Below, piece after piece: positions 659 to 28,404 of a stretch of DNA of 64,000 bases. The translations under genes were made by a program, and so were the position numbers. This DNA is from Rhizobiales bacterium NRL2 (lineage in GTDB: Bacteria; Pseudomonadota; Alphaproteobacteria; Minwuiales; Minwuiaceae). The notes under the pieces were generated by a model. That model saw only the letters and a program-made list of their open reading frames with translations, did not search any database and was not told where the DNA came from. The stretch covers positions 2,749,001 to 2,813,000 of the forward strand of contig CP016093.1 in the NCBI GenBank assembly GCA_001664005.1, written 5' to 3'. How positions within the stretch are numbered: the first letter of the stretch is position 1; the number at the start of each line of letters is the position of its first letter.

Positions 659-1570
659 TCAGACCAGACGCCCGTCCTTGTCGCGAACCTCGGGCCCGCG
701 CACCCGGGCGCGGCCGTCGCCGAAGCCGCTGTCGCGGCCCTGCAGCGCCGCCTTCAGCCCCTTTTCGCGCGCGGCCTTGCGGAAGGCCTGCGTGCCCGGC
801 GCCAGATGAGCGCGGGCGTCATTCTCGGCGGCGATCCGCTGCAGCGTCCGCCCGCCCATCAGCTCGATGCCCAGATTGACGATGCGCTTGTTGGCCGTCA
901 GCAGGTCCGGATCGATCTTCGCCATCCGGTCGGCCAGACCCTCGACCTCCGCCTCCAGCATGTCACCGGGCACGGCCTTCAGCACCAGCCCGATCAGCGC
1001 CGCTTCCTCGCCGGTGACCGTATCGCCGGTCAGCAGCAGCCGCTTCGCCCACTGCGGCCCGCAGTTGTAGAGCCACATCTGGTTGGGCAGCGAGCCCAGG
1101 TCGCGCGCCGGCGGAAAGCCGATGGTGGCGTCCTCGGCGGCGATGATGATGTCGCAGAGCAGCGCCAGATCCGAACCGCCGGCCAGGCAGTGTCCGTGCA
1201 CCTGGGCGATGACCGGCTTGTGCATGTCGAAGATCGACATGCGCAGGCGCTGGGCCTGCTCCAGGCGCCAGATGTCGTCGTCGATGGTCGGGTCGGCGTA
1301 TATGCCGCCATCGCGGTACTGGCCTTCCGGATCCAGGCCCTGCACCCGGCTGTTCTGACCCGGCGTCAGATCGTAGCCGGAAGAAAAGGACGGACCGTTG
1401 CCCCGCAGCACGACGCAATGCACGCGCTTGTCGTTGTCCGCTTCCCAGAGTGCGCGGTTGAGTTCCTCCAGCAGCGGGATCGACAGCGCGTTCCGCTTCT
1501 CCGGCCGGTTCAGCGTGATGCGCGCGCGGCCGTCGGCCACCTGGTAGATGATGTGCTGCAGTTCGGTCAT
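659..1570 (-). CDS. Enoyl-CoA hydratase/isomerase (crotonase) family protein
   Basis: A 303-residue crotonase-fold enzyme, probably hydrating or isomerising an acyl-CoA in the cytoplasm. Family marks are the N-terminal ITLNRPEKRNAL strand, the first oxyanion-hole segment SFSSGYDL, and the second one in HGHCLAGGSDLALLCD, followed by IGFPPARDLG. The open frame continues six codons upstream, but the stretch AAAGGGGAGATCAGG lies directly before the ATG at 1570 and serves as ribosome binding site, so the shorter start is preferred. It sits 94 bp downstream of the TRAP permease and 63 bp upstream of the SDR gene, on the same strand. The C-terminal 40 residues are Arg/Gly rich. The exact reaction is not determinable. 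Confidence 0.88.
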   Translation of the reverse strand: MTELQHIIYQVADGRARITLNRPEKRNALSIPLLEELNRALWEADNDKRVHCVVLRGNGPSFSSGYDLTPGQNSRVQGLDPEGQYRDGGIYADPTIDDDIWRLEQAQRLRMSIFDMHKPVIAQVHGHCLAGGSDLALLCDIIIAAEDATIGFPPARDLGSLPNQMWLYNCGPQWAKRLLLTGDTVTGEEAALIGLVLKAVPGDMLEAEVEGLADRMAKIDPDLLTANKRIVNLGIELMGGRTLQRIAAENDARAHLAPGTQAFRKAAREKGLKAALQGRDSGFGDGRARVRGPEVRDKDGRLV

Positions 1571-1664
1571 CCTGATCTCCCCTTTCAAGATGCGCGCATT
1601 CTGTCCGTCCGGGCGACCCCGCGCAAAGCCTGTGCGCGCATGGCCACCGTGACAGCAGCCGGCG

Positions 1665-2963
1665 TCAGCCGAAGATCACGCCGGGGAGGAAGGTCGAAAG
1701 GCCGGGCAGGGCGACAAGCAGCGTCAGCACCCCGAGTTCCGTCGCGACGAAGGGCCAGACGCCGCGATAGATCTCGGCGACCGGCACCCTGGTGACGCCG
1801 CTGACCACGAAGACGTTCATGCCCATGGGCGGGGTCACCAGTCCGATCTCCGCAGTCTTGACGAACACCACGCCCATCCAGATCGGATCGAAGCCGAGTT
1901 CGGTCAGCAACGGAAAGGTAAGCGGCAGCGTCAGCAGCAATATGGCGAGCTGGTCCAGGAAGAACCCGAGTACGAGCAGCAAAAGCAGGACCATCACCAG
2001 CACCAGCCAGCGGTTGACCCCCGCGCTGCGGATCGCCTCGATCAGGTCAGAAGTCACCCCGGTCATGGTCAGAAAGACGCCGAACACTGCGGCGAAGGCG
2101 ACGATGGTCATGACCATGGCGCTCACCCGCGCGCCGCGCATCGTCGCCGCGGCAAGTTCGCGAAAGCCGCACCGTCCGGCGGCCACGGCGACAAGCAGCG
2201 CCATGAGCGCGCCCACCGCGCCCACTTCCGTCGGCGTGATGATGCCCGAATAGAGCGCGAAGACCATCGCCCCCAGCAGCAGCAGGACCGGCCAGACGGC
2301 GCGCGCCGCCGAAAGCCGCGCTGCAGCGGACGCCGGTTCCGGTGCGGTCGGCGCGATGTCCGGCTTCCGGCGCACCATGACATGGATCGTCAGCACATAG
2401 CCCAGGCCCGTCACCACGCCCGGCAGCAGGCCGGCGACAAGCAGGCGGCCCACCGATGTCTCGGTGAACAGGCCGTAGAGCACCAGCCCCAGGCTGGGCG
2501 GGATCATGATGGCGAGCGTGCCGACGACGGCCAGCGTGGCCGTGGCGAAGCCCCGCTGGTAGCCGTAGCGCCGCATCTCGGGATAGGCCGCGCCGGCGAG
2601 CGTGCTGGCCGCCGCCGTGCTGGAGCCGGAGATCGCCGCCAGGATCACGCCGCCGGCGACCGCCGCGTAGCTGACGCCGCCGCGCAGATGACCCATCCAG
2701 GTATAGGCGAGGTTGAAGATGTCGCGCGTGAACCGGCCCGCCGTCAGATACTCGGCCATGAGAATGAACATGGGCAGCGTCGAGAGCGTGTAGCTGGCGA
2801 CGTGTTCATAGGGGGCGGACTTGAGCACGCCCATCAGCGGGGCGGACCCCACGGCCAGCCAGATCCCGACGGTGCCCGCGGCCAGCAGCGCGAAGGCGAC
2901 CGGCAACCCGAACAGCAGCAGCGCGAACAGCAGGCCGATGCCGGCCAGAGCCTCGGCGATCAT
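1665..2963 (-). CDS. dctM: TRAP transporter large permease (DctM family)
   Basis: A 432-residue polytopic inner-membrane protein forming the ion-coupled translocation subunit of a TRAP uptake system. It has about a dozen hydrophobic segments. Typical DctM features are the SGSSTAAASTLAGAAYPEM region, the IMIPPSLGLVLYG segment, TPTEVGAVGAL, and VFVKTAEIGLVTPPMGMNVFVV near the C-terminus. Its start overlaps the end of dctQ by 4 nt (ATGA), so the two are translationally coupled. The binding-protein gene lies upstream in the same operon. Downstream crotonase and SDR genes suggest a carboxylate substrate that is activated and degraded as a CoA ester, which is inference. Confidence 0.93.
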   Translation of the reverse strand: MIAEALAGIGLLFALLLFGLPVAFALLAAGTVGIWLAVGSAPLMGVLKSAPYEHVASYTLSTLPMFILMAEYLTAGRFTRDIFNLAYTWMGHLRGGVSYAAVAGGVILAAISGSSTAAASTLAGAAYPEMRRYGYQRGFATATLAVVGTLAIMIPPSLGLVLYGLFTETSVGRLLVAGLLPGVVTGLGYVLTIHVMVRRKPDIAPTAPEPASAAARLSAARAVWPVLLLLGAMVFALYSGIITPTEVGAVGALMALLVAVAAGRCGFRELAAATMRGARVSAMVMTIVAFAAVFGVFLTMTGVTSDLIEAIRSAGVNRWLVLVMVLLLLLVLGFFLDQLAILLLTLPLTFPLLTELGFDPIWMGVVFVKTAEIGLVTPPMGMNVFVVSGVTRVPVAEIYRGVWPFVATELGVLTLLVALPGLSTFLPGVIFG

Positions 2964-14562: not shown

Positions 14563-16623
14563 ATGAAACGCCTGATCGATCACCTGCCCATCGTCGCGAA
14601 GCTGGCGCTGCTGGCGCTGCTGCCGCTCATCGGCGCGCTGGCGCTGGTCACGATGGAACTGCTTCAGCAGCGCCACACCGCGGACCAGGCGAACAGGATC
14701 GCGAACATCGTCGAGGTCGCGCCACTGATCTCCGAGGTCGTGCACGAACTGCAGAAGGAACGCGGCTACTCTGCCGGGTTCATCAGTTCCTACGGTGAGA
14801 AATTCGCCGGTGAAGTCACCACGGTACGGGCCAGCGCCGACAAGCGGCTGAAGGCGCTCGAGACCGGACTGCCGGAAGACGATCCGGCCCTGCAGAACGA
14901 GACCTTCGCGCGGAACTATGCCCTCGCCCGGGAAGCGCTTGCCGGGCTGAAGAACACCCGCCGCGCCGTCGACGAGCAGATGCTCGGCACCGGCGAGATG
15001 GCGGCCTACTACACCGGCACCATAGACAAGCTGGTCTCTGCGCTCCAGAGCGTCACCCAGATTCCCGAGGAAGGCCATCTGACGCGCAACCTCACGGCAT
15101 TTTCCGCGTTGCTGCGTGGCAAGGAGGCCGCCGGCCAGGAGCGCGCCATGGGCGCTGCCGGCTTCAGCGGCGGCGCCTTCTCCCAGCAGGGCTACACCAG
15201 CTTCGTCAGCCTGCAGGGCCAGCAGGAGGTCGAATGGGAGACCTTCCGCATGACGGCCGAGCCGGCGATGACCGAGGCGCTGGACGCCATGCTGGCCGGC
15301 GACACCAGCATGACGCTCGAGCAGATGCGCGAACTGGCGCGGGGCTGGCCCTTCGGCGCCTCGCTCGCCGATGTGAGCGACGCCGACTGGTTCCAGGCTT
15401 CCACCAGGCGAATCGACGACCTGAAGACGATCGAGGATCGGCTCGCCGCCAACCTCATGGAACAGGTCGACAGTGCCGAGAGCGCTGCCTCGAGCTACTT
15501 CTGGGTGCTCGCCGCGGTCGCGGCCGGCCTGCTGGCGCTCTGTGTGGGTTCCGCAGCGCTGGTCGCCGTCTCCCTGATCACCGGCATCCGCAGCCTGACC
15601 GACACCATGACCCGTCTCGCCGACGGCGACACGTCGGTTCACGTCTCCGGCCAGAAACGCCGCGACGAGATCGGCCGCATGGCCCGCGCGGTTCAGGTGT
15701 TCAAGGAGAACGCCCTGGAAAAGGCGCGGCTGGAGGCGGCCCAGGAAGAGACCGAGAAGCGCGCCGAGGCCGAACGCAAGCAGGCCATGCAGGAACTGGC
15801 CAACCAGTTCGAGGCCGCCGTCGGTCAGATCGTCCAGACGGTCTCCGCCGCGGCGACGGAACTGCAGGTCGCTGCCGAGACCATGACCGGCACCATCGAG
15901 GAGACCAACACCCGCTCCACCGCTGTGGCCAGCGCCTCGGAACAGGCGACGATGAATGTCCAGACCGTGGCCTCGGCCGCCGAGGAGATGTCGTCGTCCA
16001 TCCGGGAGATCGGCCGCCAGGCCGCCGAATCGTCGACCCGGGCCAAGACGGCGGAAACCGAAGCCGACGAGACGGTGCTCACTGTCCAGCAGCTCTCCCA
16101 GACGGCCGAGAAGATCGGCGACGTCATCTCGCTGATCCAGGAGATCGCCGAGCAGACCAACCTGCTGGCGCTCAACGCCACGATCGAGGCCGCCCGCGCC
16201 GGCGACGCCGGCAAGGGCTTCGCCGTGGTGGCCTCCGAGGTGAAATCGCTGGCCAACCAGACGGCGAAGGCGACGACCGACATCGCCGAGCAGATCCAGG
16301 CCATCCAGGCCGCCACCGGCACCTCGGTCTCGGCAATCCAGAAGGTCACCGGCGCGGTCAAGGAGCTGAACGGGATTGCCTCGACCATCGCTTCGGCGGT
16401 GGAGGAGCAGACCGCCGTGACCCAGGACATCGCCAAGAATGTCCAGCAGGCCGCCACCGGCACGCAGGACGTCTCGTCGAACATCTCCGGGGTCAGCGAA
16501 GCGGCCACCCAGTCCAGCTCGGCCGCGGCGCAGGTACTGTCCTCGGCGGGCGAACTGGCCCGTCAGGCCGCCAATCTCAACACCGAGATGAACAGCTTCC
16601 TGGAGCGCGTCCGCGCCGCCTGA
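14563..16623 (+). CDS. Methyl-accepting chemotaxis protein, NIT-HAMP type (array copy 3)
   Basis: A third 686-residue chemoreceptor. The N-terminus [20 protein letters not shown] mirrors the other copies; the NIT-type domain begins at [19 protein letters not shown]. Membrane segment 2 (about 315-338) is followed by HAMP and the MCP signalling domain with the conserved [20 protein letters not shown] tip. The signalling half is slightly more diverged than that of copies 1 and 2 (for example [21 protein letters not shown]), so copy 3 may be the older branch. The start at 14563 follows GAGGGGACTGGACGAAC and aligns with copies 1 and 2. Confidence 0.92.
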
Positions 16624-16652
16624 ACGGAGGCTTTCATCGACGGAAGATCAAA

Positions 16653-16680
16653 GGGGCCGCCGGCGCACACCGGCGGCCCC
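16653..16680. terminator. Probable bidirectional terminator between converging genes
   Basis: GGGGCCGCCGG and CCGGCGGCCCC form a perfect 11-bp stem around CGCACA, followed by TTCTTT on the plus strand and preceded by a short A-rich stretch that gives T residues on the minus strand. It separates chemoreceptor copy 3 from the converging MBL hydrolase gene. Confidence 0.75.
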
Positions 16681-16693
16681 TTCTTTCAGGGCC

Positions 16694-17446
16694 TCAGTCC
16701 AGCGCGATCGCCAGCCCGTCGCGGCTGCGCTCCAGACCGGCCGGCAGATCCATGGCCAGCACCTCGTCGGCCATGTGCGTCGCCAGCACGCGCTTCGCGC
16801 CGATGCGGCCGAGATTGCCGGAGAGCGTTTCCAGATCGAGGTGCAGCGGCGCGCGCTTTGACGGCATGTAGGCCTCGGCGATGAGCAGGTCCGCGCCCCG
16901 CCCCAGCTCCACCAGCGCCTCGGTCCACTCCGTGTCGCCGGTATATGCGACAGTCCGGCCGCCAGCGGTGAGGCGATATCCGAAGTTCGGCCCGCCGGGA
17001 TTGCCGTGGCTCACGCCGATGGCGCGCGCTGCCACGTCATTGACCGCCGCCGTCCCGCCGGCGGCCAGTTCCACGATCTCGGTCTCGAACTTCCGCTGCG
17101 CGCCGGCGGAACCCGGATAGGCCAGCTCCATCACCTGCTCCAGCCGCGCCTCGATCCCCGTCGGCCCGACGATGGTCAGCGGCGTGCGCCGCCGCGAGCC
17201 GAACTGCGCGTCCAGGATGAACAGCGGCAGGCCGAAGAAATGGTCGAGATGGAAGTGCGTGATGAAGACCGTGTGGATGGCGTTTGGCTCCAGGCCGAGA
17301 CGTTTCAATCCGACGAGGACCGTTGCGCCGCAGTCGATCAGGAAGGCCCCCTCACCCGCCGCGACGTGGTAGCAGGTCTGCAGCCGCCCGCCGCTGCCGA
17401 AGGCGTCCCCGGAGCCGACGGCGGTGACGGTGACGGGCGGCTTCAT
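16694..17446 (-). CDS. MBL-fold metal-dependent hydrolase (RNase Z-like subgroup)
   Basis: A 250-residue metallo-beta-lactamase-fold hydrolase with an intact dinuclear site: H64-F-H66-L-D68-H69, then VSHGNPG, YTGDTEW (metal-bridging Asp) and ATHMADEV near the C-terminus. The compact length, the N-terminal VTAVGSGDAFGSGGRLQTCY pattern and lack of an exosite arm fit RNase Z-like/PhnP-like general MBL hydrolases rather than true tRNase Z. The gene begins one base after the stop codon of the upstream alpha/beta hydrolase, so the two form a unit. Substrate unknown. Confidence 0.82.
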   Translation of the reverse strand: MKPPVTVTAVGSGDAFGSGGRLQTCYHVAAGEGAFLIDCGATVLVGLKRLGLEPNAIHTVFITHFHLDHFFGLPLFILDAQFGSRRRTPLTIVGPTGIEARLEQVMELAYPGSAGAQRKFETEIVELAAGGTAAVNDVAARAIGVSHGNPGGPNFGYRLTAGGRTVAYTGDTEWTEALVELGRGADLLIAEAYMPSKRAPLHLDLETLSGNLGRIGAKRVLATHMADEVLAMDLPAGLERSRDGLAIALD

Positions 17447-17447
17447 G

Positions 17448-18338
17448 TCATGCGTCCGGGCGGGTGATGAAGTCGCTCACCGTCGCGCAGAAATCGTCCA
17501 GGCGGTCGTGCTGCACCCAGTGGCCGGCGCCGTCGAATGTGACGATCTCCGCCGTGTTGAAATGCTTCGCGCGGCCATCCTCTTCGGGGTTCGAGGCCCA
17601 GCTTTCCGAGCCGTAGACCAGCAGCGTCGGGCACGCGATCCGCGACCAGAGCTCCTGCACGCCCCGGCCCGGCATGTCGTAGGGCGGCCAGACGCGGACA
17701 TAATTGTCGAACTTCCACGAATAGGTGCCGTCCTCGTTCTGGATCACGCCCTGCTCGGTCAGGTGCCGTGCCTGCGCGGGCGAGAGGTGCTTGTTCTCCT
17801 CCTGCATGCGGCTGAAGGCCTCCTCGATGGAGGCGTAGCGCCGGGGCATGCGGCCGGCCAGCTTGCGCGTGCCCTCGATCCATTCGCGCATGCGCTCCGC
17901 GAACGATACCTCACCGCGTTCCTTCAGGATCTTCGGCGACGGCCCCAGCCCCTCGATCGCCACCAGGCGGCGGACGTTCTCCGGATAGACGCCGGCATAG
18001 CGCAGCGCGATGTTGCCGCCCAGCGAATGCGCCACGATGGTCACCGGCGCCAGATTCTGCTGATGAATCAGCTGCGCCAGATCGTAGACGTAATTCTCCA
18101 TGCCGTAGCTGCCGTCCGCCGACCACTGGCTGTCGCCATGGCCGCGCAGGTCGGGCGCGATGACATGCCAGTCGTCGCGGAAGCGTTCGGCCACCCAGTC
18201 CCAGTTGCGGCAGTGGTCGCGGCCGCCATGGACGAGCAGCAGCGGCGGCGCCTCCGGATTGCCCCAGTCGACATAGTGGAGCCGGAGACGCTGGGAGAAA
18301 TAGGTCCGTGAAATCGGGCCGGATGCGATGGCGGGCAT
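17448..18338 (-). CDS. Alpha/beta-hydrolase fold protein
   Basis: A 296-residue cytoplasmic hydrolase. Typical elements are the oxyanion segment LLLVHGGRDHCRNWDWV, strand-turn APDLRGHGDS, nucleophile elbow AHSLGG (GxSxG-type), and the C-terminal FDGAGHWVQHD supplying the catalytic His. The frame is open 28 codons further upstream, but the ATG at 18338 has AGGATC at suitable distance and begins the conserved fold. The downstream MBL hydrolase gene starts immediately after its stop. Esterase, epoxide hydrolase or C-C hydrolase activity are all possible. Confidence 0.83.
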   Translation of the reverse strand: MPAIASGPISRTYFSQRLRLHYVDWGNPEAPPLLLVHGGRDHCRNWDWVAERFRDDWHVIAPDLRGHGDSQWSADGSYGMENYVYDLAQLIHQQNLAPVTIVAHSLGGNIALRYAGVYPENVRRLVAIEGLGPSPKILKERGEVSFAERMREWIEGTRKLAGRMPRRYASIEEAFSRMQEENKHLSPAQARHLTEQGVIQNEDGTYSWKFDNYVRVWPPYDMPGRGVQELWSRIACPTLLVYGSESWASNPEEDGRAKHFNTAEIVTFDGAGHWVQHDRLDDFCATVSDFITRPDA

Positions 18339-21778: not shown

Positions 21779-22693
21779 TCAGCAGAAGGACGGGGCCATT
21801 TCCTCGACCTGCTCGCGCGCCGCCGGGCTCAGATGACCGACCGTGGCGAGAAAGTTCGGGTGGCTCATGCCGGAACCGAGATAGGTCCAGCGGTTGGCCT
21901 GATGCTGCTGCTCGGCGATCTCCTCGCGCTCGGGCCATTCCAGCTTGCGGCCGCTGGCCCGTTCGAAGGCGTCGAGGTCGAAGACCGTCTGCTGGCGCAG
22001 TCCTTCGTCCAGGAAGGCGCCGATGGCGGCGTAGCCCTGCACACCCGCCTCGATACCCGCCTCGTCGAGGCCGGCGGCGATGGTCTCGACCATCAGCGTA
22101 TCGAGCTTCGCGTGCTGGGCCTCTTCCATCCAGTGATGGCGCAGCAGGCTGCGGAACAGCGGATCGAGATCCAGGTCGTCGCGCACGCTCTCGACGTAGT
22201 GGCGCTGGGTCATCCACTCGATGTGCAGGATGGTCAGCGCCACCGCGAGCGGCGGGTGGCCGAAAACGAACTCGGCGACCGCCGAGGGCGGGCCAATGAG
22301 GTCGCAGCGCGTCCCGAAGCCGGCCTCGAAGGCCGCGGCGAAGCGCTTGAACAGGTGGATGTGCTTCGCCTCCTCGGTGGCGAACTGCAGCATCGCGCGG
22401 GTCTGGTGGTCGTCGACGTCGAGCTGCGGACGGGCGTGGTCCATCACGAAGGGCAGGATGAACTCCTCGACCAGGCCGAAGATGCCGAGATAGGCATTGC
22501 CCCGGACCTGGTTGAGGATGCGCCGCTCGTCGTCGTTCAGCATGGTCAGCGGTTCGACCCGCGCCAGCGCCTCCGGCATGAAACGGCGCGAGAAGTCGAG
22601 GCGCTTGCCGTCGTTGATGATGTCCTCGACCTGCCAGTTCACGCGCGCCGAGGCGGCCAGCGTGTCGGCGTAGGTGTAGTTGTGGTAGTACAT
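21779..22693 (-). CDS. AurF-like diiron oxygenase (ferritin-like fold)
   Basis: A 304-residue helical protein with a diiron ligand set. Candidate ligands are E76/E77 (VEEF), E108 and H111 (TEEAKH), E159 (HIEW), and H187, E191, H194 (RHHWMEEAQH). The final H-x3-E-x2-H plus the extra His is the arrangement that distinguishes the N-oxygenase AurF from ordinary four-helix ferritins, which have two Glu and one His per half. No signal peptide is present. AurF family members oxidise arylamines or related substrates, but the substrate here is unknown. The ATG at 22693 follows GGAAGGAGAAACGATC. Upstream lies the SARP-like regulator; downstream lies OsmC. Confidence 0.75.
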   Translation of the reverse strand: MYYHNYTYADTLAASARVNWQVEDIINDGKRLDFSRRFMPEALARVEPLTMLNDDERRILNQVRGNAYLGIFGLVEEFILPFVMDHARPQLDVDDHQTRAMLQFATEEAKHIHLFKRFAAAFEAGFGTRCDLIGPPSAVAEFVFGHPPLAVALTILHIEWMTQRHYVESVRDDLDLDPLFRSLLRHHWMEEAQHAKLDTLMVETIAAGLDEAGIEAGVQGYAAIGAFLDEGLRQQTVFDLDAFERASGRKLEWPEREEIAEQQHQANRWTYLGSGMSHPNFLATVGHLSPAAREQVEEMAPSFC

Positions 22694-24948: not shown

Positions 24949-25320
24949 CTAGCCGTCTTCATCGTCGGGATTCACAAGCAGCGGCTCGCGGCGTTGGACC
25001 GCCCGCATCACGTGCTCGATGTCGGCGGAGGCGCCGAGATGGCGGTCGAGCACGCTGCGCAGCACGCTCATGGCGCCATCGAACGCTTCCGGCGGAAGCC
25101 GGCGTTCGGCGACCCGGCGGCGGTCCTCGGCACTGTCAAACGCCGCGGGGCCATCGAGAACCCAGGTGAGGAAGCGTCGGTGACGATCCGCCAGCTCCTC
25201 CATATCAGTGTTCTCGAAGCGTGAGCTGAAATACGGAACCCCGCGAAGTCCCGCGTGATACTCGGCGACGATGCGTTTGACGGTCGCAGCGCCGCCGACG
25301 CGCTTGTACATGCTTGGCAT
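24949..25320 (-). CDS. Truncated-hemoglobin-like protein lacking the proximal histidine
   Basis: A 123-residue protein that aligns along its length with group I truncated hemoglobins: MYKRVGG at the N-terminus (matching IYDKIGG), a Tyr at 21 in the B10 position, FENTDMEEL (FSGTNMSRL) and FLTWVLDGPAAF (FFAAALGGPEPY). At the F-helix, where the family has VHQGRG with the heme-ligating His, this protein reads VAERR, so residue 71 is Ala. His94 lies in the next helix and is unlikely to replace it. Either heme is held differently or the protein is a globin-fold sensor without heme. GAAAGGAAAGATCAG precedes the ATG at 25320. It is 64 bp upstream of the regulator gene and probably in the same transcript. 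Confidence 0.72.
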   Translation of the reverse strand: MPSMYKRVGGAATVKRIVAEYHAGLRGVPYFSSRFENTDMEELADRHRRFLTWVLDGPAAFDSAEDRRRVAERRLPPEAFDGAMSVLRSVLDRHLGASADIEHVMRAVQRREPLLVNPDDEDG

Positions 25321-25509: not shown

Positions 25510-25749
25510 CTACCAGTCCCGCCGGAAGACCAGGCCCGCGTCCAGATGCATCCGGTCCAGCCCCAGATCCCGCAGCTGGCGCGCCGGCAGCGACAGCAGT
25601 TCATGGCGCTCGCTGCGCCGGGCGGCGGCCCGTTTCAGGCGCTCGCGCAACCGCTCGAGGGCGCTGCAGGCCGCACCGGCCATTTCGGACAGCAGGAAGG
25701 CGCCGCGGGCGCTCGCGCCCAGCCGTTCGGTCATCAGTTCGTAAGTCAT
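25510..25749 (-). CDS. DUF1127 domain small protein
   Basis: A 79-residue basic protein. The C-terminal half carries the DUF1127 pattern: an Arg-rich helix (RLRERLKRAAARRSERHEL) followed by LSLPARQLRDLGLDRMHLDAG. Such proteins are common in alphaproteobacteria and a few bind RNA and affect phosphate or stress physiology. The start at 25749 follows AAGGAGCTGAAG, a strong ribosome binding site. The frame is open upstream, but that stretch is unconserved in character. It lies 189 bp upstream of the globin gene on the same strand. Confidence 0.8.
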   Translation of the reverse strand: MTYELMTERLGASARGAFLLSEMAGAACSALERLRERLKRAAARRSERHELLSLPARQLRDLGLDRMHLDAGLVFRRDW

Positions 25750-25923
25750 CTTCAGCTCCTTTCTCCCGCCGGCGGCCTCGATCGGCCCGCTGGACGGAGC
25801 GGAAGATGACTTCGCTACATGGTTAAGCGCGTGTTGACGTTCATGGAAACCGCCACGAACCACGTGGAAAAGTGCGGTTTTCAGCGTGGGAAGCGTGACC
25901 GCCGCCACAGTGCTGCGCCGCAG

Positions 25924-28404
25924 CTAGAAGATCCAGCGATCCCAGGAACCGAAGCTGTCCCGGATATGGCCGCGGCGAATGCTGAATGCCGTGAGCGCGA
26001 GCGCACTGCCGATGCATGACGCCCAGCCGGCCATGCCGGCGCCGATCATGAACGGCGTCGCCAGCAGGCAGGCCGCCAGCACCAGGTTGAGGAACCGCAC
26101 GGCGCGCAGGGGCGCGGCCAGCGCGGTGACCGTCACGGTGATGGCGACGGAGCCGACCAGGTGACTGACATTGGCCATGGTCCCCTCGAAGCCCAGCACC
26201 AGCGGCGTGAACATCAGCCAGGCGCCGGCCAGCAGGCAGAGCGCCAGATTCCACGGCAGCGAAACGCCGCCGATCACCATCTCGCGGAAGATGCGCCACG
26301 GACCCCGCTCGAAATCATCGGAGACCTCCTCCCATTCGCCCTCGTCGGTGTCGCCGGTGAAGAAGATACGCAGCACGGGCCGGCCCGCCCGGTGACGGCG
26401 GACGAGGAACTGGCCGGTCGCGACCAGCTCGTCCACCGAATAGGGGATCTGGATCAGCATGGCGGCAGCAGCGATCAGGCAGAGCGTGCAGTAGGTGCCG
26501 ATCATGATCGGCTGGATCACGATGAAGAAGATCGAGATCGCGCCCAGCGGCACGATCATGATGCCGAAGATGGTCACCAGCCACGGCATTGTGCGCCAGC
26601 GCCGGGCCGAGCCGATCAGCCCGACGATGATCTCCAGCGCATAGGTGAGCGCGCCCAGGCCGGCGTCCGGCACGGGCCAGGCTTCGGAGACGCTTGACGT
26701 GATGATCTCCTCGGCCCCGTTCTTCCCCGCCTCGTTGCCCGGAAAGAACGGCTCCCAGACGCCCGGAATGGCCTCGAGCTGGTAGGCCGCAAGATAGCGG
26801 GAGATCAGCAGTCCGACCACGGCCAGCACGATGATCGGCACGCGCTGGTACCAGCTCGACGGGGAGAACGGCCAGCCCTTCGGAATGGTCGGTCCGGTCT
26901 GCGAAGCGACGGCGGTGACGCCGGGCGGCGGGCGCACGGCGACCGCGAAGCAGATCACCAGCATGCCGACCAGGGTGCCGTTCAGATAGGCCACGCCGGA
27001 GGGCGCCCAGAAGACCAGTGGCGCGGCCATCACCCAGATGCCGACAGCGGCCGTGACCCAGCGCGCCCAGGCGTGGCGCCAGGACAGCGAAATGAATGCG
27101 AAGACCAGAAGGGCGACACCCGAGGCGACATCGCTCCATACCATCCATGGGTCCTGGTAATCCAGCAGCGGCGGCGACGTCATGAGCCAGAAGGCCAGCC
27201 CCATGTTCGTCCAGTGGCCCCAGAGATTGTTGCGGTGCTCGCGGCGGAACTGCGCCTCGTGGCGGGCGCGGACGTCCTCGGCGTTGTCGACCTTCTGCTC
27301 GGCAGCCTGCATCCAGTAAGGCTGGACGATGCCGTTGCGGTCGTACCAGGCGGCCGGGTCGGCCTTCAGGCTCTCGACCAGCCGGGGCAGTTCTTCGCGC
27401 AGACGCCGGCGGGGCTCCCAGCCCAGCAGATCCCGCGCCTTGCGCGTGTTGAGCATGAAATGGTCGCTGGCCATGTCGACCATGAAGGGCCGGATGAACG
27501 GCGGTTCGCCATGGTCGAAGTCGTCGGGAATCACCGGCTCGCCCTTGACCTCGGCCCAGGCGCCGGCCTTCGCCACCGGTGCGGGTACGGTCACTGTCGT
27601 CCAGTCACCCTCGCCATGGATCAGGCGGCCGATTTCGTCCTGCAGCTCGGCATAGCTCATCACCGCCTCTTCACCGGCGAGGATCGGACACCATTCGGGC
27701 AGATCCTTGCGGCGTTCCACGGTTCGGCGGAACAGTTCGACGACGTCGTCCTGATGGATTACCGCCTGCCCCGCGCGCTGATCGCCGGCGTAGAGATGGC
27801 TTTTCGGGTCACGCTCGTAGATGCGCGCAATCTGCTGCGACAATGTCGGGATGGCGCTTTGGCCGTCGTACATCCCGGCCAGACGCAGCATCGCGACGGG
27901 TATGTCGCCGTGTTCCTCGGCAATCACCGTCTCGGTTTCGGCCTTGGATTTCGGATAGGCCCATTTCGGCCCGATCGGCGAGTCCTCGTCGATCATGGCG
28001 CCCAGTTCGCAGGGCTCGTGCACCAGCATGGTGCTGGAATAGACGAACTGCTCGACCTCGAAGTCCTGCAGGCGCCGCAGCACCCGGCGCGTCCCATCGA
28101 CATTGACCGCGTCGTAGAGCGGATGATCCTCGCCGGTGAAGTCGAAATAGGCTGCCAGATGAACGACGGACGCGATGCGCCCGCCGTGGCGGGCGCGGAA
28201 CTTCTCGAATGCCTCCGCGACCGAGGCGTCATCAGTCAGGTCGAACTCGATCAGTTCGCAGGCGGCTTCGAGCCCCGGCATGTCCATGCCGACGATGCGG
28301 AAGCGGTCGGACAGCGCTTCGGCGAGCGCCGTTCCGATACCGCCCGCAGCGCCGGTGATGAGGACGATGGGCTTGCCGTCGTTCTTCTTCTTTTTCCTGG
28401 CCAT
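25924..28404 (-). CDS. NAD-dependent epimerase fused to SPW-repeat and VKOR-like membrane domains
   Basis: An 826-residue fusion. Residues 10-345 are an extended SDR epimerase/dehydratase: TGAAGGIG (18-25), VHLAAYFD, and the catalytic Y150-P-K-S-K154. Residues about 393-490 contain four membrane helices beginning [15 protein letters not shown], resembling SPW repeats. Residues about 520-660 resemble vitamin K epoxide reductase ([28 protein letters not shown], and TYCTLC with Cys639/Cys642). Residues about 713-815 form a second SPW-like set ([18 protein letters not shown]). The periplasmic-loop cysteine pair of VKOR is absent: the usual CSxxx position reads TSSVSEAWP. The protein should place a cytoplasmic NAD(P) domain next to a membrane quinone/disulfide-type domain. 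Start follows AAGAAAGAGCCT. Confidence 0.8.

Follow-up and report, generated by a model that had tools for sequence, protein, structure and literature searches.

An epimerase-SPW-VKOR-SPW fusion family with a VKOR-like membrane bundle that may have been repurposed from thiol chemistry

The window analysed here, a stretch of 64,000 nucleotides from Rhizobiales bacterium NRL2 (contig CP016093.1), carries an open reading frame in which an extended-SDR (Epimerase) domain is followed by a VKOR domain set between two SPW repeat domains (Table 1). The VKOR match scores 83.7 bits against a Pfam cut-off of 27.5, the only two matches to SPW (PF03779) above cut-off in the whole genome both lie inside this frame, and the VKOR part holds a single CxxC, formed by C639 and C642. 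Neighbours in the window include genes for a class II fumarase, a DUF1127 protein and a truncated globin; no copper genes adjoin the fusion gene there. The original prediction had read the same domain order and the same cysteine pair from this locus, and had suggested a protein of unrecognised type. The literature searched is in keeping with that suggestion, as it held no description of such a protein: no paper on the SPW repeat by that phrase, and nothing relevant on VKOR with SPW or epimerase, on VKOR with the locus of heat resistance, or on the pSymB homologue. A Sulfobacillus paper matching VKOR, copper resistance and plasmid was set aside, as the hypothetical VKOR that it mentions, in a region for metal resistance, comes with neither epimerase nor SPW. 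The gene is otherwise annotated only as an epimerase or a vitamin K epoxide reductase family protein, including on many metal- and stress-resistance plasmids, and the analysis below offers a hypothesis for its function.

Table 1. Features of the fusion gene and its surroundings (window coordinates)
Feature	Position	Strand	Basis or remark
Whole gene, Epimerase/SDR-SPW-VKOR-SPW fusion	25924..28404	-	826-aa ORF, ATG start
Extended-SDR (Epimerase) domain, residues 14-232, cytoplasmic	27709..28365	-	Pfam E 1e-17; Foldseek
NAD(P)-binding TGxxGxxG, residues 17-24	28333..28356	-	Family alignment
Catalytic YxxxK (YPKSK), residues 150-154	27943..27957	-	Family alignment
First SPW repeat domain, residues 395-487, 4 TM helices	26944..27222	-	Pfam, AF2
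VKOR domain, residues 523-656, 4 TM helices	26437..26838	-	Pfam, Foldseek
Periplasmic VKOR loop without cysteines, residues 548-580	26665..26763	-	Alignment, 98 sequences
CTLC (C639/C642, preceded by Y638), equivalent of VKOR active-site Cys132/Cys135	26479..26490	-	Alignment
Second SPW repeat domain, residues 718-803, 4 TM helices	25996..26253	-	Pfam, AF2
DUF1127 protein	25510-25908		Downstream of fusion gene
Truncated (bacterial-like) globin	24949-25320		Downstream of fusion gene
AurF-like di-iron N-oxygenase homologue	21779-22693		Downstream of fusion gene

Scanning genomes yielded 488 stretches that encode relatives. Each of the best 80, picked by similarity, matches the membrane part over almost its full length, and 79 of them carry a full-length fused frame of 821-1208 amino acids that includes the epimerase, the remaining locus (L032) being cut by a 4-kb contig. 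The fusion is therefore not a product of chance; it marks a real, widespread family. Its hosts are Alpha-, Beta- and Gammaproteobacteria (Nitrosomonas, Alteromonas, Halomonadaceae, Legionella, Rhodobacterales and others), and in evenly drawn genomes it is as rare as expected for an accessory gene, with 5 full-length members among 385 genomes of the class and 6 among 398 of the phylum. Plasmid records add members from Sinorhizobium, Sphingomonadales, Cupriavidus and Rhodanobacter, together with SPW-VKOR-SPW proteins that have no epimerase, from Candidatus Manganitrophus (Nitrospirota) and the haloarchaea Haloprofundus and Natrinema; the viral contigs searched hold no relatives. Among the Sinorhizobium members, the homologue on pSymB of S. 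meliloti 1021 matches at 44% in the membrane part (16486-17853). Jiella carries two annotated genes, one for the SDR and one for the membrane part, with 13 bp between them.

Fused genes of the family are found among copper genes, heat and oxidative-stress genes, cytochrome-oxidase genes and Ku/LigD genes. Deep-branching fused forms lie in copper or heavy-metal islands in Cupriavidus, Sphingomonas koreensis, Rhodanobacter and Aurantiacibacter, and so do the members of Rhizorhabdus and of Pontibrevibacter (with cueR directly downstream), both of which were left out of the tree. The copper context is read mainly from plasmids, which favour resistance genes, and is to that extent biased. Other fused forms neighbour GroEL, Hsp20, YfdX, DUF308, K+ efflux and Do protease genes, an ATP-dependent DNA ligase with catalase, or cytochrome oxidase genes. 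Across 86 chromosomal or contig loci, a Na/Ca exchanger (Na_Ca_ex) gene is found in 16, mostly directly downstream, and clusters of frames near the fusion encode LigD (12), COX1 (11), CtaG (8), Ku (6) and beta-oxidation proteins (5-6), counts that are not independent given that relatives share synteny. The standalone SPW-VKOR-SPW genes (L113-L115) adjoin a GH15 (trehalase-like) gene and have an SDR gene nearby in Manganitrophus, Haloprofundus and Natrinema, within islands that encode copper P-type ATPases or proteins that bind copper; two of these islands also have CopB or a multicopper oxidase. These SDRs are of the classical type (adh_short) and are not orthologues of the fused domain. Together with the two adjacent genes of Jiella, separate SDR genes near standalone forms point to a link between the SDR and VKOR parts. 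The set of GH15, SPW-VKOR-SPW and classical SDR genes recurs as a cassette of copper islands in archaea and bacteria (L113-L115 and L117); GH15 lies between the other two in Manganitrophus, and in Cupriavidus (L117) the membrane part is fused to an epimerase.

The AF2 model of the whole protein, made with 71 homologues, has a mean pLDDT of 90.5 and a pTM of 0.83, with twelve membrane-length helices divided equally among the first SPW, the VKOR and the second SPW domain. In having two SPW domains of four helices each the protein is like other SPW repeat proteins (PF03779), the difference being that here they flank a VKOR. Residues 506-674, modelled on their own (pLDDT 85), retrieve only VKOR or VKORL structures at Foldseek ranks 1-8 against the PDB, with probabilities of 0.99-1.00, E of 0.01-0.06 and a modest TMq of 0.47-0.60. 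No VKOR was found in the PDB by a sequence profile of the domain, even at E 10, and the relationship must therefore be remote. It is nonetheless consistent: VKOR is the only Pfam match over this stretch in 71 of 71 aligned members, and the VKOR fold that had been predicted is supported. With the SDR placed inside, inner loops carry twelve lysines and arginines and outer loops none, a positive-inside pattern that puts the SDR in the cytoplasm, as had been proposed, and the VKOR loop and CTLC in the periplasm, the latter at the outer end of helix 4. Given this separation, direct electron transfer between SDR and CTLC is unlikely.

The SDR domain is itself typical of extended SDRs and NAD-dependent epimerases (HpnA, GalE-like proteins, 4id9) in fold, TGxxGxxG and YxxxK, and unlike them in being joined to a membrane part of 12 TM helices. 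In the rows shown, a whole-protein Foldseek search gave only SDRs and other epimerase-fold enzymes, led by UDP-glucose/galactose 4-epimerases at a TMt of about 0.77, while against HpnA, GalE, RmlD and the other NCBIfam equivalogs every score fell far below the curated cut-off. G18, G21 and G24 are invariant in the 71 aligned members, the two exceptions among the added plasmid members being Cupriavidus and Sphingomonas koreensis (Ala). The YxxxK motif, correctly reported as intact in the window protein, is likewise invariant in the 71, and among all members that bear the domain it is absent solely in Cupriavidus. That member (L117:8789-11374) has L..M in place of YxxxK and Ser for one glycine of the NAD motif, and the gene immediately upstream of it encodes a classical SDR.

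The literature regards VKOR as a thiol oxidoreductase with four absolutely conserved cysteines. A published phylogeny found Cys43, Cys51, Cys132, Cys135 and Ser57 fully conserved, having culled sequences without the known conserved residues (PMC4555120). The fusion family departs from this in its loop. An ungapped alignment with canonical VKOR-DsbA proteins places residue 570 at Ser57 and 564 at Cys51, and the loop of a short standalone VKOR (L017, WCPIFGRGC) sets the Cys43 position at 551; counting on from residue 570 against human VKORC1 makes residue 580 the Asn80 position. In the loop between VKOR helices 1 and 2 (residues 548-580) no cysteine occurs in the window protein, as originally noted, or in any of 98 aligned members. 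The Cys43 position is instead Glu or Asp in all 98 (E551 here), and the Cys51 position is Thr, Ser or Ala (A564 here). Invariant residues of the VKOR part are S570, S573 and D580 (98/98), G584, Y588, R602-W-R604 and Q631-P632, several of which fall at VKOR positions that Bevans et al. class as conserved or as putatively linked to the substrate (PMC4555120). Like Synechococcus VKOR (4nv2), human VKORC1 and VKOR-like proteins of PF07884, the fusion has the four-helix fold, the loop helix, the CxxC position and the equivalents of Ser57, Gly84 and Tyr88. Unlike them it has an invariant Asp at the Asn80 position, besides being embedded between SPW domains and joined to an SDR. It also has Ala at the position of human Tyr139, so that the pocket for vitamin K is preserved only in part.

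Whether the carboxylates E551, E565 and D580, at or near the places of the thiols, form a site for copper, calcium or zinc, through which the bundle would sense or buffer metal and control the SDR, deserves consideration given their conservation, the copper islands of the deep branches, the cueR gene beside one relative and the Na/Ca exchanger neighbours. Residue 565 is Glu in 94 of 98 members; it is, however, Asp or Ala in two standalone forms, and VKORs ordinarily have an acidic residue following the second cysteine of the loop, so that E565 may mean little. A metal site of this kind is quite improbable. An invariant Glu replacing Cys51 was also entertained and dropped, since the ungapped alignment puts Cys51 at 564 and makes E565 the usual acidic residue after it.

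The CxxC pair behaves differently from the loop. Both cysteines are present in 84 of 98 members (86%, a frequency of this similarity-picked sample), both are lost in 14, replaced by S..A or A..T, and a single cysteine never remains. Homologues without CTLC, which the original prediction had named as evidence against itself, thus do occur, although most members keep the pair. On a tree built without the motif columns by a quick search, the CxxC changes four times, at least three of these being required by branches supported at 95 or above, and the changes are read as losses because the outgroup has both cysteines. In members without the pair, the rest of the domain is as conserved as in those that have it. 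VKOR identity is 0.88 against 0.68 for the SDR in the Cys-less Rhodobacterales group, and 0.79 against 0.66 in the Cys-less Sphingomonas/Rhizobiales group; the corresponding ratios of VKOR to SDR divergence, 0.37 and 0.62, bracket the 0.44-0.56 of cysteine-containing groups. VKOR is thus the best conserved domain in Cys-less lineages as elsewhere, which argues that cysteine redox cannot be what it is chiefly conserved for; to judge from these alignments, thiol chemistry is optional in the bundle. A search of the Cys-less lineages for co-varying residues, with a badly set filter and mostly uninformative output, showed no clear compensation and no shared new cysteine. The idea that CTLC does the redox work, with electrons coming from another partner or from an NAD(P)H-linked cytoplasmic reaction, is not supported and fits poorly with these losses and with the topology.

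The main rival is nevertheless a thiol-redox VKOR with a shortened relay, in which the CxxC would exchange electrons directly with a periplasmic thioredoxin-like partner and reduce quinone, the SDR would act separately, and the S..A lineages would have lost this part. A pair kept in 84 of 98 members and never lost singly is what a working pair would show, and Dsb, TlpA and SCO genes lie near the fusion in Jiella and Pontibrevibacter. Further, the relay can be bypassed, since human VKOR Cys51Ala retains 77.5% of activity (PMC7895805). Against this stand the equal conservation of the domain in Cys-less members and the presence of DsbB in the host genome, which means that the fusion is not the host's only candidate thiol oxidase. 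Canonical bacterial VKORs in the sample, moreover, keep all four cysteines and a DsbA-like domain: the VKOR-DsbA fusions (L129, L130), similar in setting a VKOR bundle within a multidomain membrane protein, have C..C, CxxC and a C-terminal thioredoxin-fold domain, of which only the CxxC is found in the window protein. On balance the shortened relay is somewhat unlikely.

Alternatively, the VKOR and SPW parts may be an anchor or scaffold that does no chemistry on a ligand and keeps the SDR, along with partners like the Na/Ca exchanger or cytochrome oxidase, at the membrane, with the CxxC as a structural disulfide. The invariant cytoplasmic loop R-W-R-x-M-P-W, which faces the SDR side, the platform of 12 TM helices and the exchanger gene of 16 loci are all compatible with such a role. 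However, periplasmic S570, S573, D580, Y588, Q631 and P632 are just as invariant, more than an anchor needs, and the SPW domains, membrane parts likewise, are far less conserved than VKOR; a mere scaffold is unlikely.

The reading preferred here, tentatively and with a probability of roughly 0.4, is that an SDR tethered to the membrane acts together with a VKOR-fold site repurposed for lipid or quinone, in metal and envelope stress. An NAD(P)-dependent extended SDR would sit at the N-terminus in the cytoplasm on a twelve-helix SPW-VKOR-SPW platform. The VKOR bundle, keeping its fold and several substrate-pocket positions, would have given up the thiol relay, with a carboxylate at Cys43 and Thr, Ser or Ala at Cys51, and its conserved task would be independent of cysteine. 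Most likely it would bind a lipid-soluble substrate, quinone or another isoprenoid or lipid, such a site being a possible candidate; the SDR may then oxidise, reduce or epimerise that substrate, or the module may sense its state. The CxxC would be a paired disulfide that members can do without, with a structural or minor redox role, and that several lineages lost as a whole; the system would belong to accessory, often mobile islands for copper or other metals and general envelope stress. Points against this reading are that 86% of members keep the CxxC, which therefore matters in most of them, that Ala stands at the Tyr139 position, that the SDRs beside the standalone forms are not orthologues of the fused domain, and that the copper context comes mainly from plasmids and is not seen next to the gene in the window. 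More broadly, the proposition that a VKOR-fold domain has been repurposed for a cysteine-independent function (lipid, quinone or metal), working with a fused or co-encoded SDR in an undescribed module that spans Pseudomonadota, Nitrospirota and haloarchaea and is tied to copper and envelope-stress islands, is finely balanced. Strong selection on a fold that lacks the loop cysteines, and in some branches lacks all four, would imply a second use for it, and natural Cys-free VKORs could provide a test of the quinone pocket acting alone.

Several minor observations concern individual members. Two frames are longer than the usual 830 amino acids, at 1208 (L098) and 1130 (L099), possibly through extra sequence or an unused upstream frame. 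Two copies of the fusion gene occur in Alteromonas profundi (L034 and L053) and in genome G725 (L121 and L127). The short standalone VKOR of L017 (about 1486-1947, minus strand) has four cysteines and GVPDG before helix 2; it is close in motif to the fusion family and may be a link to canonical VKOR.
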